Shown piece after piece: positions 42,899 to 48,779 of a stretch of 64,000 nt of DNA. This stretch comes from Ardenticatena maritima (GTDB taxonomy: Bacteria; Chloroflexota; Anaerolineae; Ardenticatenales; Ardenticatenaceae): positions 248,001 through 312,000 of the forward strand of contig NZ_LGKN01000005.1 of assembly GCF_001306175.1 (NCBI RefSeq), given 5' to 3'. The position numbers were made by a program, and so were the translations under genes. Under the pieces are notes generated by a model, which had not been told where the DNA came from, searched no databases, and was given only the letters and a program-made list of their open reading frames with translations. Position 1 is the first letter of the stretch; each line of letters opens with the position of its first letter.

Positions 42899-42907
42899 AA
42901 CCCATTG

Positions 42908-43003
42908 GCACCCTGCTTCCCTCCGCCGGCATGACCCGGATCAGGTTCAAGGGGTTCTCGCCCAAGCGAGTCTCAGCCACTGACGCGGCACCCCCAGCAG
43001 TGG
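42908..43003 (-). promoter_or_regulatory. TPP (THI-box) riboswitch
   Basis: Minus-strand sequence carries the conserved core: P1 arms CTGCT/AGCAG, GGGGTGC, GGCTGAGA, then CCTTGAACCTGATCCGGGT and CATGCCGGCGGAGGGAAGC. All are invariant thiamine pyrophosphate aptamer elements. It lies in the leader of thiB; with the attenuator at 42863-42898 it should repress thiB when TPP is abundant. Confidence 0.97.
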
Positions 43004-43037
43004 TGCATGTTGTCTTCGATTGTTCGTGTGCGCCCAA

Positions 43038-43321: not shown

Positions 43322-44959
43322 ATGAAGCGCAAAATACTGGGGAGTGTCACCGGCGGCACCTTTCTGGACGGGCTGGACGTTCGCCTGGAACCTGACATCA
43401 ACACCGAGGACGTGCCTGTTGGCAGTTTTTGCGTCCTTGAAGGCGACCGCTACCGCTATTTTGGCACCGTGCAAAACGTGCGCCTGCACGCCACCGACAA
43501 CCGTCTCATGGTCGTGCCGCCGCGTCATCTCTCACCATTCGCCCAGCGCATTATCCGCGGCACAGCGGGATACGCCGTCGCCGAAATCAAGCCGGCGCTG
43601 ATGATCGAACGCCTGCCCGAAAACGCCATCGTGGATGAGGTGCAGCCTCCCCGCCCGGTGAAGACCATTCCCATGCACTTCGCCCACATGGTGGAAGCCC
43701 GCCCCGAAGATTTTGTGCTCGTCTTCGGGGAGGAGCGCGACGACCCGCAATCTACGTTCTTTGCGCTGGGCAAGCCGCTCACCATGGAGATTGACGTCTG
43801 TGTGGACCTGCGCCGCCTTGTCGAACGTTCAACGGGGATTTTTGGGAGCACAGGCACGGGGAAAAGTTTCCTCACGCGCCTTTTGCTGAGCGGTATCATC
43901 TGGAAAGACGTGGCGGTCTCGCTCGTGTTCGACATGCACGGCGAATACGCTACCAGCCAGCAATCCGAAAGCGGCGACTGGGTGAAAGGCTTGCGCGACC
44001 TCTTCGGCAGTAGTCGCGTCGCCGTCTATTCCCTCGATGAAAACAAGACCTCGAACGTGGATGGAAACATCGTCATCGGTCTGAACCACATCGAAAGCGG
44101 CGATATTTTGCTGCTGCAAGATGAGTTGGGGTTGCCCAAAGGCACTACCGAAACCAACATCGCCCAACTTGAACGCGCATTTGGTGAAGGCTGGGTGAGC
44201 GCTTTCCTCGCCCTGGATCCCGAGGAGGTGAAAACATTTGCTGATGAAATCGGCGGGCATGCCGGCTCACTGCAAGCCCTGCACCGCAAACTGACCCGCC
44301 TGCGCAACAAGAGCTACGTCCTCGACAACGCTGACTACAACGCCATAGACCAGATCTTGCGGCTTATCGAAAATGGTCGCCATGTCATCGTGCAATTCGG
44401 GCAGTACAACAGCCTGCTCGATTACCTGCTGGTCGCCAATATCATCACCCGCCGCATCCGCAATCGCTACGAAGAGCAGGTCGAGAAGTTCCTGCTCACC
44501 AAGCAGGACGCCGACAAACCCAAACCATTGGTGATTGTCGTGGAAGAAGCGCACAAGTTTCTCGGTCCCGAAATGGCGCACCAAACCATTTTTGGCACCA
44601 TCGCGCGCGAAATGCGCAAATACTTTGTGACCCTGCTCATCGTGGACCAGCGCCCCAGCGGAATTGACGATGAAATCCTTTCGCAGTTAGGCACACGCAT
44701 CTCCGGTCGCCTCAACGACCAGCGCGACCTTGACGCGGTACTCACCGGCGTTGCCGACCGCGCGACTGTGCGCAGTATGCTCACCACACTGGACACGCGC
44801 CAGCAAGTGGTTGTGTTCGGGCATGCCATGCCCATGCCGGTGCAATTGCGCACACGCCGCTACGATGAAACCTTCTACCAGCAAGTGCGCGGGGGCAAAA
44901 AAGGACCCTCATTGGACGCCCAAGACCTCGACCAGTTGATTGATGACCTTTACGGCTAG
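43322..44959 (+). CDS. HerA-like hexameric ATPase (DUF87)
   Basis: FtsK/HerA-superfamily DNA translocase. An N-terminal HAS-barrel-like beta domain (residues 1 to about 125) precedes the RecA-type core, with Walker A GSTGTGKS (175-182), Walker B VIVVEEAHKFL, and LIVDQRPSGIDDEILSQLGTRI as sensor and arginine-finger region. 545 aa. ATG 43322 has AGGAG 8 nt upstream. Archaeal HerA works with the nuclease NurA in end resection; here no NurA or SIR2-type partner gene is adjacent. The 3' end overlaps a small lipoprotein gene. Confidence 0.91.
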   Translation: MKRKILGSVTGGTFLDGLDVRLEPDINTEDVPVGSFCVLEGDRYRYFGTVQNVRLHATDNRLMVVPPRHLSPFAQRIIRGTAGYAVAEIKPALMIERLPENAIVDEVQPPRPVKTIPMHFAHMVEARPEDFVLVFGEERDDPQSTFFALGKPLTMEIDVCVDLRRLVERSTGIFGSTGTGKSFLTRLLLSGIIWKDVAVSLVFDMHGEYATSQQSESGDWVKGLRDLFGSSRVAVYSLDENKTSNVDGNIVIGLNHIESGDILLLQDELGLPKGTTETNIAQLERAFGEGWVSAFLALDPEEVKTFADEIGGHAGSLQALHRKLTRLRNKSYVLDNADYNAIDQILRLIENGRHVIVQFGQYNSLLDYLLVANIITRRIRNRYEEQVEKFLLTKQDADKPKPLVIVVEEAHKFLGPEMAHQTIFGTIAREMRKYFVTLLIVDQRPSGIDDEILSQLGTRISGRLNDQRDLDAVLTGVADRATVRSMLTTLDTRQQVVVFGHAMPMPVQLRTRRYDETFYQQVRGGKKGPSLDAQDLDQLIDDLYG

Positions 44960-45326
44960 GTGTATGCGTTTCCTGGTGTTGGGGCTGTTGGCGCTGGGGC
45001 TCGTTGCATGTGGCGCGTCGCCGGCGCCAACAGTTGACATCATCGCGCCGGTGAACGGGCAACGCATTCCCACAGGTCGTGAAGTTGGCGTACACGTGCG
45101 CGCAAACGCCCCCCACCCCCTTGACCGCGTTGAGTTTTACGCGAACCGTGAGCTCTTCGCTGTGCTCACCCCACCCCACGCCACGACCACGTTTGAAGGC
45201 GTTGCCTATTGGGTGCCGCCCACCCCCGGCGCGGTGCGGTTCGACGTGCGAACGTTTGATCGGTTTGGGCACGCCAGCATGCTTACCACAGTGGTGGTGG
45301 AAGCCGTGGGGGAACCTCTGCGATAG
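44940..45326 (+). CDS. Small lipoprotein with Ig-like domain
   Basis: 128-residue exported protein. A hydrophobic signal (MRFLVLGLLALGLVAC) ends in a lipobox Cys, followed by a single beta-sandwich domain of the type that starts VDIIAPVNGQRIPTGREV and ends FDRFGHASMLTTVVVEAV, like bacterial Ig or cadherin-type modules. The start is uncertain: ATG 44940/44943 overlaps the HerA gene by about 20 bp, and ATG 44964 lies just after it. None has a strong Shine-Dalgarno; the longer forms give a more usual signal length. Function unknown. Confidence 0.72.
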   Translation: MMTFTARCMRFLVLGLLALGLVACGASPAPTVDIIAPVNGQRIPTGREVGVHVRANAPHPLDRVEFYANRELFAVLTPPHATTTFEGVAYWVPPTPGAVRFDVRTFDRFGHASMLTTVVVEAVGEPLR

Positions 45327-45743
45327 CAAAATGGGCACAAAAAAACGTTGCCGCCCTGGGGGGAGCAGGGCGGCAACCGTCGAGGAGGGGGAACAGCTGG
45401 TGTTTGGTTGTACCGGTCTCAACTCTCTAAACGCCACAAGCGAAATTTTTTGCGCATAAGCAGGCCAATTTTCGCCTTTTTTCGTGTGGAATGAGCGTTT
45501 CAAGCCGCTGCCGGTGCCGCCGCCGCCGTCCACCGTCCACCAGCGCAGGTCGTACCCCCGCCGGACTGGACCAGAGTGAGGGAGACAATCAGAAGCAAGC
45601 CGGCCCATTTGACGGACAAGAGGCGTTTGAACGCTTGCGGACGTGCCTGCTGATGCGCTATGAGTTTCCGCCCTGCTTTTCAGCGGCACAGTCAAATCAA
45701 AACACATCTGCTAGGGAGCATTTGGTGCTGGAGGGGGGGGGGA
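45327..45743. other. Gene-free stretch, left part (remnant-like)
   Basis: No convincing gene on either strand. The plus strand at about 45573-45735 is open with protein-like composition (DGQEAFERLRTCLLMRYEF region), but it lacks a start signal or recognisable family and may be a decayed remnant. A G10 run lies at 45733-45742. A minus-strand terminator (45339-45377) marks the left edge. Confidence 0.5.
45339..45377 (-). terminator. Orphan minus-strand terminator
   Basis: Minus strand: GTTGCCGCCCTG, 7-nt loop, CAGGGCGGCAAC, then GTTTTTTTGTG. Perfect 12-bp stem. Its T-tract points in the minus direction although no minus-strand gene lies to its right for over 700 bp; on the plus strand (after the lipoprotein gene) it lacks a T-tract. 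Confidence 0.8.
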
Positions 45744-45843
45744 GGGAAGAACGGTGGCGATGGTTGCGAGCCCTTTTGTGCGGAAAATAGCCTTGCGGCG
45801 GTTTGTACAGGAGGTGTTTCCTGTTTTCGCCACCGTTCTTCCC
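45744..45843. repeat. 17-bp inverted repeat enclosing small hairpins (candidate structured RNA)
   Basis: GGGAAGAACGGTGGCGA (45744-45760) and its exact reverse complement (45827-45843) flank 66 nt. Inside on the minus strand are ACAGGA/TCCTGT (6-bp stem, 6-nt loop) and GCC-GCAA-GGC (GNRA-type loop). The layout is that of a closed multibranch RNA; a small MITE-like element is the alternative, but no target duplication is visible. Confidence 0.6.
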
Positions 45844-45867
45844 TGTGGGGGTAGGTGTGCATGCACA

Positions 45868-45876
45868 GTATACCAA
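45868..45876 (-). promoter_or_regulatory. Possible extended -10 promoter facing the inverted-repeat element
   Basis: Minus strand TTGGTATACT (TGG plus TATACT), about 25 nt before the inverted repeat. There is no -35 match. It is the only promoter-like signal that could feed minus-strand transcription toward the orphan terminator at 45339-45377. Confidence 0.35.
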
Positions 45877-45904
45877 CTTGAAATGCGCTTGTATAGGTAC
45901 ACGC

Positions 45905-45935
45905 GTACTCAATTTATGAGTACATTTGTACTCAT
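45905..45935. promoter_or_regulatory. GAGTAC/GTACTC palindrome cluster
   Basis: ATGAGTAC-ATTT-GTACTCAT (45916-45935) is a perfect 8+8 palindrome, preceded by a further GTACTC half-site at 45905-45910. The AT-rich setting and regular half-sites resemble a dimeric repressor operator just upstream of the minus-strand extended -10. Confidence 0.5.
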
Positions 45936-45971
45936 TGCTTTTTGTGAATTCTAACTTTTTGAATTGAAAAC

Positions 45972-46014
45972 AAAAAAAGACATCTCCCACTAATTCATGT
46001 GCAGTGGGAGATGT
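45972..46014 (-). terminator. Terminator of the 46075 gene
   Basis: Minus strand: ACATCTCCCACT, 11-nt loop, AGTGGGAGATGT, then CTTTTTTTG. Perfect 12-bp stem about 60 nt past the stop codon. Confidence 0.9.
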
Positions 46015-46074
46015 AAGAGGGGCAAACCGCAGAGTTATCAATCATGCCAAACAGTTGCAGCGCCGTCTTTGGGT

Positions 46075-46707
46075 TCAATACACTCTTTCGCTGACCTTCT
46101 CAACCACATAATCAAACAACGCGCGCCCAAACTGCTCCTGACCTTGGGGCACATTGATGTGCGCCTCAATCACATACGCCCCATTCTGTACCCAAAACAC
46201 ATAGGCTGGGACACCTTCATCATCTACACCCTGCCATGTACGCCATACTTTTCCTTGCCGCTTGAAACCTTCTGCAATTTCGGGTTTGATGATCTCCGCA
46301 TCGCTCACGGCTGATTGCCACCCATATTGGCGCACGGGGTCAGCCATCTTGCTCAATGCAACGCGCGCACTTGCTTTGGAAGGAAAGGCATACACGGCAC
46401 TATTCACTAACGCTACCTGTTCATCCTTCGCGATAACTACCATGTGCGTTGCATCTCCCGTATGCCAGCCACGTAATACCCCATAACTCTCAGGCTGTAT
46501 CGCATTTTCAGAGCCCAATACTTGTACATATCCAAAACCTTTCAAGTCATCTACTTGAAGCAACCATGTAGATAAGATACTCTCCTTTTGTGGTACAAAT
46601 GAGGCTTCTCGTGCCTGCATCAAATTTGCCCGCGTCAAATTTACGCCAAAAGTGACCAACAATATCATACTGAAAAACAAGGTAAACGTTTTCGTTCGAG
46701 TCACCAT
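46075..46707 (-). CDS. Exported protein of unknown function
   Basis: 210 aa. An N-terminal signal or anchor (MVTRTKTFTLFFSMILLVTFGVN) precedes an alpha/beta-looking domain with FVPQKESILSTWLLQVDDL, AFPSKASARVALSKM, and a repeated-strand region (KVWRTWQGVDDEGVPAYVFWVQNGAYVIEAHI). The later part resembles a substrate- or ligand-sensing lobe, but I recognise no family. ATG 46707 has AAGGAGG upstream. Codon use is lower in GC than its neighbours, together with its AT-rich flanks. Strong promoter 230 nt upstream. Confidence 0.75.
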   Translation of the reverse strand: MVTRTKTFTLFFSMILLVTFGVNLTRANLMQAREASFVPQKESILSTWLLQVDDLKGFGYVQVLGSENAIQPESYGVLRGWHTGDATHMVVIAKDEQVALVNSAVYAFPSKASARVALSKMADPVRQYGWQSAVSDAEIIKPEIAEGFKRQGKVWRTWQGVDDEGVPAYVFWVQNGAYVIEAHINVPQGQEQFGRALFDYVVEKVSERVY

Positions 46708-47097
46708 CGGGAATCCTCCTTGTATATGGCAGGTCTGTTCATTGAGGCAGACAGCACCACTCCACTGCACAGCCCAGCAAAAAACAGAATGGAAAGGCGC
46801 TGAGACAATCGGTGATCGCTACATAGGTAGCAAAGAGGGAAAACGGCGTGCCGCGCGGGGAAAATACGAGGCAACAAGAAAGAGCGCTGGTTTTCTACAT
46901 AAACGCCTCCCCAAAATTTCTTTTTGCTATCCGAACGGCAGTATAAACCCCTTGTCGCAGTTGTCAATGGTCAAAAGGGGTAGATATGCGTCGAATAAGT
47001 CGCCCGCCCTGCGTCATTTTGACGAAAATCCCCTTGCTCAATACAGTCCATAGGCGTTCCTCATCAAAACAAAAAACCGTGCGAGAGGGAGGGAGCC
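46708..47097. other. Divergent intergenic region with long leader
   Basis: 390 bp between two divergent genes. Minus side: promoter at 46940-46967 and a leader of about 225 nt for the 46075 gene, with GGGGAGG followed by an ATG-TAG start-stop pair at about 46896-46901. Plus side: a CGTCATTTTGACG palindrome (47012-47024) lies upstream of the 2Fe-2S gene. No gene is supported. Confidence 0.55.
46940..46967 (-). promoter_or_regulatory. Strong promoter of the 46075 gene
   Basis: Minus strand TTGACA (-35), 16-bp spacer, TATACT (-10). Consensus -35 and near-consensus -10, placed about 230 nt before the start codon. Confidence 0.78.
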
Positions 47098-47472
47098 ATG
47101 CCAACCATCAACATTGTCGGATTTGGAACCTGCGAAGTTGCCGAAGGCACTCGCCTCGTCAAAGCCATCAAAGCCTGCGGCGTTGATATCGGGCATCGCT
47201 GCGGCGGCTTTGCACGTTGTACCACCTGCCGCGTCGAATTCATTGAAGGTGAACCCGACGTGATGACACGCGCCGAATACGAAAAGCTCAAAGAAAGTGG
47301 GCTGTTTGGAAAAGTGCGCCTGGCATGCCAGATTGTGGTTGATCGGGATATGACAGTGAAGCCGCTCATGCGCGTCTCTGAACAGGGGTGGAGCGACCCC
47401 GGCCCCGAGCCGGAAGATAGTGTGACACCCGAAGCCGTCTTCATCCCGATTAGCGAGTTGGAACGCGAATAA
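47098..47472 (+). CDS. 2Fe-2S ferredoxin-type protein
   Basis: Small electron carrier with plant-type cluster ligands Cys35, Cys41, Cys44 and Cys77 (C-x5-C-x2-C-x32-C). The N-terminal half has the beta-grasp fold ([22 protein letters not shown]); the C-terminus is acidic and Pro-rich. 124 aa. GGGAGG lies upstream of the ATG. It may belong with the downstream thiolase gene, but the 95-nt gap has its own ribosome site. Partner enzyme unknown. Confidence 0.9.
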
Positions 47473-47567
47473 CCTCAACGGGGCGCGTCTTTATCCCTCA
47501 GAAATGGCGCGCCCCATCACTAACCTTACCCAACACACTCATCGAGCCAATCAAGGAGGAATGGCAC

Positions 47568-48779
47568 ATGCACGAAGACGTGTTCATTGTTGACGCCGTG
47601 CGCACACCCGTGGGACGCCATGGCGGCGCACTGGCAAAAGTACGTCCCGACGACATGGCGGCGCTTGTCATCAAAGCGCTGGTAGAACGTACCGGAGTTG
47701 CCCCGGAGAGCATCGAAGACGTTGTGTTCGGTTGCGCCAATCAGGCGGGGGAAGACAACCGCAACGTTGCCCGTATGGCGCTCCTGCTGGCTGGATTGCC
47801 GGTCACGGTCGGCGGCACAACCATCAACCGCTTGTGCGGTTCCAGCATGGATGCGGTGCATTACGGCGCCCGCACCATCATGGTCGGCGACGCCGAAGTC
47901 ATCATCGCGGGCGGTGTGGAAAGCATGAGCCGCGCCCCCTACGCACTCCCCAAAGCCGAATACGCCTACCCACGCGGCAACCTCACCGCCTACGATACCA
48001 CCCTCGGCTGGCGCTTCCCCAACCCCAAAATGGAAGCCATGTTCCCGCTCGAAAGCATGGGCGAAACCGCCGAAAACATCTACGACCTGACACACATCTC
48101 CCGCGAAGAACAAGACCTGTTCGCCTACCAAAGCCAGATGAAAGCCAAAGCCGCCATCGAAAGCGGGCGCTTCAAAGATGAAATCGTGCCGGTGGAAGTG
48201 CCGCAACGCAAAGGGCCGCCCATCATCGTGGATACGGACGAACACCCCCGCCCCGATACCACGCTCGAAAAACTGGCACGCCTCAAACCCGCCTTCCGCC
48301 CCAACGGCACGGTGACCGCCGGCAACGCCAGCGGCATCAACGACGGCGCGGCAGCGCTCCTGCTTGCCAACCGCGCCCAAATCGAGCGGCAAGGCTTGAA
48401 ACCTATGGCACGCATCGTCAGCATGGCCGTCGCCGGGGTTGACCCGCGTACCATGGGGCTTGGCCCTGTGCCGGCAACACGCAAGGCGCTGGCACGCGCC
48501 GGGCTACGCATCGAAGACATTGACCTGGTCGAATTGAATGAGGCGTTTGCCGTGCAAGCACTGGCGTGCATCCGCGAACTGGGATTGAACCCCGACATCG
48601 TCAACGTCAACGGCGGCGCGATTGCCCTCGGTCATCCTCTCGGCTGTTCAGGCGCACGCATTCTCACCACGCTGGTGCACGAAATGCGCCGTCGCGACAA
48701 CGTGCGCTACGGGCTGGCGACCATGTGCATCGGTGTGGGGCAAGGCATCGCCACCATTGTCGAAAAAGTGGAGGGATAA
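47568..48779 (+). CDS. Thiolase (acetyl-CoA C-acyltransferase)
   Basis: Degradative or biosynthetic thiolase. The nucleophilic Cys90 is in [15 protein letters not shown], His356 in [11 protein letters not shown] and the acid/base Cys387 in [10 protein letters not shown]. 403 aa, complete. AAGGAGG precedes ATG 47568. It may act in fatty-acid oxidation or acetoacetyl-CoA formation; which is not readable from sequence. The GH31 gene follows 6 nt later, an odd pairing for one transcript. Confidence 0.94.

Follow-up and report, generated by a model that had tools for sequence, protein, structure and literature searches.

The window analysed here is a 64,000-nucleotide stretch of the Ardenticatena maritima genome. 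It contains a 748-bp gene-free stretch (45327–46074), as had been described, between an open reading frame with a Big_7 domain on the plus strand (44940–45326) and one on the minus strand (46075–46770). Within this stretch, two arms of 18 nt (45743–45760 and 45827–45844) are 100% complementary and enclose 66 nt. The preliminary description of the locus had noted a perfect 17-bp pair closing a 66-nt interior; the perfect pairing and the interior are as stated, and the pair is 18 bp long. The fold was stronger than that of dinucleotide shuffles on both strands (z of -7.8 for the minus strand and -5.5 for the plus strand), with none of 200 shuffles equal to it on either strand. The element as a whole is larger than the 100 nt first assigned to it, and appears to consist of an RNA of ~130–160 nt, read from the minus strand, and a promoter region of ~90 bp.

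The body of the putative small RNA occupies 45729–45860 on the minus strand. It is delimited by alignments and by a match to covariance model R2 (45730–45859, minus strand), of which the window copy is itself a part, and its start is predicted near 45860 from the position of the -10 box. In order, the RNA has a C-rich 5' tail, a closing stem (P1; 5' arm 45827–45844, 3' arm 45743–45760), an internal core, and a C-rich 3' tail (45729–45742). The core includes the pieces CCGCCG (45796–45801) and AAAAGGGCUCGCAACCA (45761–45777). The ACAGGA/TCCTGT pair reported in the interior is present at 45807–45824 as the hairpin ACAGGA-AACACC-TCCTGT, which carries CACCUCC, a sequence complementary to Shine-Dalgarno sequences. 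A second minus-strand hairpin, GCC-GCAA-GGC, is located at 45790–45799.

Ahead of the predicted start, the minus strand carries a promoter-like site composed of TATACA (45895–45890), a 17-nt spacer, and TATACT (45872–45867), with one such site found versus 0.4 expected in shuffles. The TATACT is preceded by TG, in agreement with the extended -10 noted earlier. Two operator-like sites lie upstream. Site 2, TGAGTACGCGTGTACCTA (45894–45911), is centred at about -42.5 and has lower symmetry in the sister genus, and site 1 (45917–45934) is a perfect palindrome, TGAGTACAAATGTACTCA, centred at about -65.5. Farther upstream, close to where the repeated unit stops, is a conserved A/T-rich piece, AAAAAGTTAGAATT (45947–45960). 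The upstream gene (46075–46770) is closed by a terminator-like hairpin (45980–46014, minus strand), recognized as an inverted repeat with a T-run seen by eye; its 11-nt loop exceeds the 3–8 nt allowed in our terminator scan, which did not call it. On the other side of the RNA, alignment with other copies places a decayed terminator at 45699–45727, where the scan called none and no T-run occurs.

An orphan minus-strand terminator had also been reported downstream, and it is indeed present, at 45347–45377 with a CUCCCCCC loop. This strong terminator probably does not belong to this RNA, as it stands in a separately conserved stretch that the second Ardenticatena genome (G001) has with no RNA copy nearby. 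It may nonetheless stop read-through from the window copy. The stretch that ends in this terminator (45335–45473, minus strand), with a CCCCCUCCUC run before the terminator, is 86% identical to G001 C49:58839–58978 and lies beside the same convergent gene. The RNA copies found in G001 by covariance model R1 are only on contigs C29 and C45, and none is near the terminator stretch on C49. This stretch may represent another C-rich RNA or the terminator of a gene; it weakly resembles 6C RNA, part of it (45340–45395) scoring 21.6 bits against the 6C model, for which the cut-off is 47. A further piece (45504–45582, minus strand) has one similar place each in G001, G002, and G005 and three in G004. 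It contains SGGGYDLRWWTVDGGG and by eye looks like the interrupted beginning of a gene for a secreted protein. Elsewhere in the window, a TPP riboswitch (RF00059, 81.3 bits) is located at 42901–43005 on the minus strand, upstream of an open reading frame that by eye resembles a substrate-binding transport protein.

The RNA occurs in three near-identical copies in its own genome (G000): the window copy, C5:606866 (C5b), and C4:341326. The other two are 91% identical to the window copy (131-base query), and with flanks 91.7% identical over 242 bp and 94.0% identical over 249 bp. Identity extends past the inverted repeat, to ~45714 on one side and ~45965 on the other. Among the 60 relatives searched, G001 is the sole genome of the same genus. 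It has two full copies, at the ends of contigs C29 and C45, and a truncated third at the end of C56. The C56 and C29 ends are probably one orthologue of the C4 copy, as alignment of the flanks puts the two ends at the two sides of that copy. At the syntenic C4/C29 locus, the RNA and promoter are ~90% identical, versus 78.5% for the flank on one side and 79.6–81.6% for that on the other.

The window locus itself is syntenic with G001 C49 on one flank only (47016–48771, 80% identity), and at this place G001 has the promoter but lacks the RNA. Sequence matching the opposite flank (up to 45473, 79% identity) lies ~55 kb from there on C49, showing that the place has been rearranged. Both a gain at the window and a loss in G001 would account for the missing RNA. 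The decayed terminator of the window copy, along with the absence of the RNA at this one-side-syntenic place, suggests that the window copy may be dispensable.

Diverged copies also occur in a sister genus within the family, represented by G002 and G004. Model R1, built from the five Ardenticatena copies without sister-genus sequences, gave one clear match each in G002 (E 6.6e-5) and G004 (E 2.3e-4) in a search of seven genomes with 150 candidates each, in which the next-best matches had E ~0.05. Both copies lie directly behind the series GTACTCA, 6 or 7 nt, GAGTAC, 3 nt, TGT, TATACA, 17 nt, and -10 box. This layout is outside model R1, and we take the promoter as the decisive point for regarding the two as true matches. 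The G002 and G004 copies share one gene neighbourhood (73.5% identity across 5087 positions of flank), which by eye differs from those of the Ardenticatena copies. Their RNA and promoter are 72.4% identical over 214 positions, no better than this mostly coding flank. Three weak matches were treated as due to chance: one of 31 bases in G022 and one in G002:C37 (E 0.0475), where the promoter was not seen, and one in G017 (E 0.049), which has no convincing operator-like site.

Neither R1 nor R2 found a copy in the family members G003 and G005, whose genomes are 83 and 86% complete. Model R2, which includes the two distant copies, had matches with E below 0.01 only in G002 and G004, both part of the model, in 38 relatives with 90 candidates each. 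A scan for the core pattern, which was exact and misses variants, found 22 loci in 84,980 genomes (one per species). Four of these, from three genomes whose titles name Ardenticatena or Ardenticatenaceae, were matched by R1 with an E of 1e-5 or lower; loci L101 (E 0.45) and L095 (E 3.1) were taken as chance. In two draws of 400 genomes of the phylum, R1 (eight candidates per listed genome) and the promoter pattern (1 of 400), one in each draw, found the own genome only. These draws contain none of G001–G005, are uninformative on the family, and are shallow for the RNA model.

The closing stem varies in sequence and is constant in pairing. Across the seven copies, nine of its 17 modelled pairs are changed on both sides, one on one side only, and seven are invariant. 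The covariance analysis proposed earlier for this locus yields compensatory changes in a conserved fold; the alignment used had been fitted to this structure, and its five Ardenticatena rows are close relatives. Taking the 26 pairs together, pairing is intact in 98.8% of cells, versus 43–58% with partners slid by 1–3 columns, and the covariation score was reached by none of 500 shuffles. Support independent of the alignment comes from folding the copies singly, as the closing stem forms in every one of the seven. Five copies, including the window copy with the most marked fold (z -7.0), had folds equalled by none of 200 shuffles. The least marked folds were those of G002 (z -2.05, equalled by 5 of 200 shuffles) and C45 (z -3.48, 1 of 200, with a shortened query).

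The best-kept letters across both genera are internal: CCGCCG in six of the seven copies (the C4 copy has CCGCAA) and AGGGCUCGCRAYC in all seven. C-rich strands occur on both sides of the stem in all seven copies as well, with a run of at least six C in the 3' tail of each. The ACAGGA/TCCTGT hairpin is identical only within the five Ardenticatena copies; the sister genus has other sequence there and lacks the CACCUCC loop. The GCC-GCAA-GGC hairpin, although present in the window as first described, is not a constant feature, being weakened in the C4 paralogue and absent from the fold predicted in the sister genus.

The promoter layout is likewise common to the seven copies. In each, the consensus scan calls TATACA, a 17-nt spacer, and a -10 box at the matching place; the -10 box is TATACT in the window, C4, C5b, C45, and C29 copies, TAAAAT in G004, and TATAAT in G002. 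Two GTAC-type sites near -42 and -65 precede the promoter in all seven. These promoter calls are consensus matches and not measured starts, and other promoter-like sites were called in some regions. Terminators were called behind the stems of the C4, C5b, and C45 copies, and one is predicted by fold behind C29, where the scan did not call it.

The proposal in the preliminary description that this is a noncoding RNA locus is supported by the covariation of the closing stem, the common promoter, the terminators behind the four other Ardenticatena copies, the lack of a kept reading frame, and the greater conservation of the RNA and promoter than of the flanks at the syntenic C4/C29 locus. Instead of a free RNA, the element could be an untranslated region (a leader, for example) belonging to the next gene, or could encode a small protein, but we consider these readings improbable. 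The five Ardenticatena copies do have an ATG at the predicted start, but the frames agree for 10 codons only and then diverge or stop. These breaks between copies make a protein gene unlikely. A leader would fit with the occurrence of the same promoter before protein genes elsewhere. It fits poorly with terminators placed directly behind the stem and with downstream genes that differ among copies (by eye, for example, htpX-like and ribosomal L25-like). The sister genus is the most favourable case for a leader, since the scan called no terminator behind the RNA in G002 or G004 and the next gene then follows. However, in both genomes a strong promoter-like site of its own, TTGACA-16-TACAAT (11 of 12 positions), precedes that gene directly behind the RNA (L110:5232–5259 and L089:5691–5718, minus strand). 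With no terminator called and this site following, the sister-genus RNA could be read into the next gene.

The preliminary description had kept open a decayed mobile element and had suggested a search for the repeat elsewhere in the genome. In such an element, a MITE or similar repeat, the inverted repeat would be a signal of mobility rather than the stem of an RNA. As in MITE- and REP-type elements, an inverted repeat is present and the copies are dispersed, three near-identical ones in the own genome, and the absence of the RNA at the one-side-syntenic place in G001 would also suit mobility. Against this, the copies are few, the unit runs ~115–120 bp past one arm such that the inverted repeat is not at its ends, and the unit has its own promoter and mostly its own terminators. 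No target-site duplication was seen by eye at both ends of three copies (the upstream end of C29 is a contig end). One copy keeps its site in both Ardenticatena genomes, another does so in both sister-genus genomes, and the stem covaries. The mobile-element explanation is thus weakened, and we regard it as very improbable. For a plasmid or phage origin, 72,556 plasmid records and 50,697 phage records were compared, and none matched; records of the own or very near genomes may have been left out of these sets. An exact 18-mer match in viral contigs was set aside, as the surrounding stretch (700 of 6007 bases inspected) was otherwise unlike by eye.

The tandem operator pattern occurs at seven places in the own genome and ten in G001. 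It was found in none of the other 58 listed relatives, and a reversed control pattern was found nowhere. A more degenerate operator site is located at C5:120035. The promoter also occurs without the RNA, before genes for secreted or membrane proteins. On G001 C9, it stands alone at five places; behind most of these, the encoded proteins have by eye signal-peptide-like starts, and one is a peptidase M23 protein. On G001 C49, a PLDc_N membrane protein is encoded further downstream of the promoter, past seemingly broken sequence. In the own genome, the genes downstream of the promoter alone encode by eye small membrane proteins and a lipoprotein-like protein. Because the same promoter stands alone before such genes, the RNA seems to be part of a regulon with them. 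At G000 C4:414447–415800 (L027), near-identical small membrane protein genes are arranged in tandem behind one shared promoter.

Candidates for the regulator were considered. The operator resembles a cyanobacterial LexA box. LexA control was not supported: the lexA genes of G000 (L118, C9:358031–358570) and G001 have GAACATTTGTTC upstream, a palindrome of the Gram-positive type of box, and not GTACN4GTAC. The lexA of G002 has a GCAC/GTGC-type palindrome upstream (by eye), and in the 235 bases upstream of the G004 lexA there was no palindrome of the kinds searched for. Control by BlaI/CopY was likewise not supported, as PF03965 had no match in G000.

The element matched no Rfam family at gathering score; the two matches in the window, the TPP riboswitch and a tRNA, lie elsewhere. 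Up to E 5, its sole match was to a microRNA model (19.9 bits, cut-off 168), which was taken as chance. The G002 copy was compared at gathering score only. The RNA thus appears to be a new family of a known kind of RNA. Within the portions of the literature covered by a limited search (Ardenticatena small RNAs or transcriptome, C-rich sRNAs, and Chloroflexi small RNAs), we did not find this RNA described, nor, in the part on Ardenticatena, any account of small RNAs of the genus, and searches for the operator and for combined C-rich sRNA terms found nothing.

Several known RNAs nevertheless resemble it in part. The Qrr sRNAs of Vibrio occur in several near-identical copies per genome with one promoter type; the RNA described here is also multi-copy and near-identical with one promoter type, and differs in having no Rfam match. 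6S RNA (RF00013) has a long closed stem and a similar size class, both shared by this RNA, although the 6S covariance model did not match it. A separate 6S RNA is located at L037:1189–1364 (minus strand; 51.8 bits, cut-off 46.4), ~4 kb from the C4 copy. The 6C/B11 sRNA of actinobacteria (RF01066) is alike in having C-rich unpaired stretches that could pair with G-rich ribosome-binding sites. The architecture differs: 6C has two hairpins with C-rich loops, whereas here a single long helix closes around a core and the C-rich parts are tails, and the 6C covariance model had no match to this RNA at gathering score or up to E 5.

Taken as one explanation, and one that we consider probable, the locus encodes a regulatory small RNA that acts in trans by pairing with mRNAs and is under control of a dimeric regulator at GTACN4GTAC sites. 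Transcription of the minus strand would start from the sigma-70-type promoter TATACA-17-TATACT. The regulator would bind both GTACN4GTAC-type sites, whose centres are near -42 and -65, and would adjoin the -35 box; this spacing and position make an activator likely. In the transcript, the long closing helix, drifting in sequence with its pairing maintained, would enclose the core (CCGCCG and AGGGCUCGCRAYC) and leave C-rich single strands at both ends. The near-identical copies would raise the dose in Ardenticatena, and action in trans is suggested by the different neighbours of the copies. The C-rich strands or the CACCUCC loop would then pair with G-rich ribosome-binding sites of mRNAs encoded elsewhere, perhaps from genes within, or opposed to, the regulon that shares the promoter.

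Such pairing is the likeliest mode of action, our first choice by analogy with mycobacterial B11, whose C-rich unpaired stretches are reported to pair with G-rich ribosome-binding sites (PMC10470900). We carried out a crude anti-Shine-Dalgarno test on the 40 long open reading frames of the window, of which 38 have a Shine-Dalgarno-like start and 37 were used. Mean pairing energies at these 37 starts and at coding controls were, respectively, -9.51 versus -10.98 kcal/mol for the 5' tail, -8.53 versus -8.98 kcal/mol for the 3' tail, -10.81 versus -12.9 kcal/mol for the core, and -9.87 versus -8.08 kcal/mol for the loop. For the C-rich tails, pairing with the 37 starts was thus no better than pairing with the coding controls. 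The loop alone prefers starts, partly by construction, as the starts were chosen for Shine-Dalgarno likeness. A less probable alternative is that the RNA binds a protein through the core presented by the helix, as a sponge, scaffold, or cofactor, rather than pairing with mRNAs. This would agree with the core being best kept across genera and with the helix preserving its pairing and not its sequence. However, the C-rich tails are also kept, in all seven copies, and the RNA neither matches an Rfam family nor is the 6S RNA of this genome, which exists separately.

A wider and more speculative role can be envisaged, which we put forward as a doubtful extension. The RNA may be the old core of an undescribed Ardenticatenaceae regulon, in which the regulator at GTACN4GTAC sites would switch on the redundant RNA copies along with secreted, membrane, and cell-wall-acting proteins. 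The circuit would resemble those of multi-copy quorum-sensing RNAs, with the C-rich strands tuning translation of this surface programme. The covariation of its stem and its fixed core make the RNA suitable for entry as a new family. A multi-copy RNA with a recognizable promoter offers a way into a regulon that includes secreted and membrane proteins, and bears on the possible use of regulatory RNA by a Chloroflexota bacterium.
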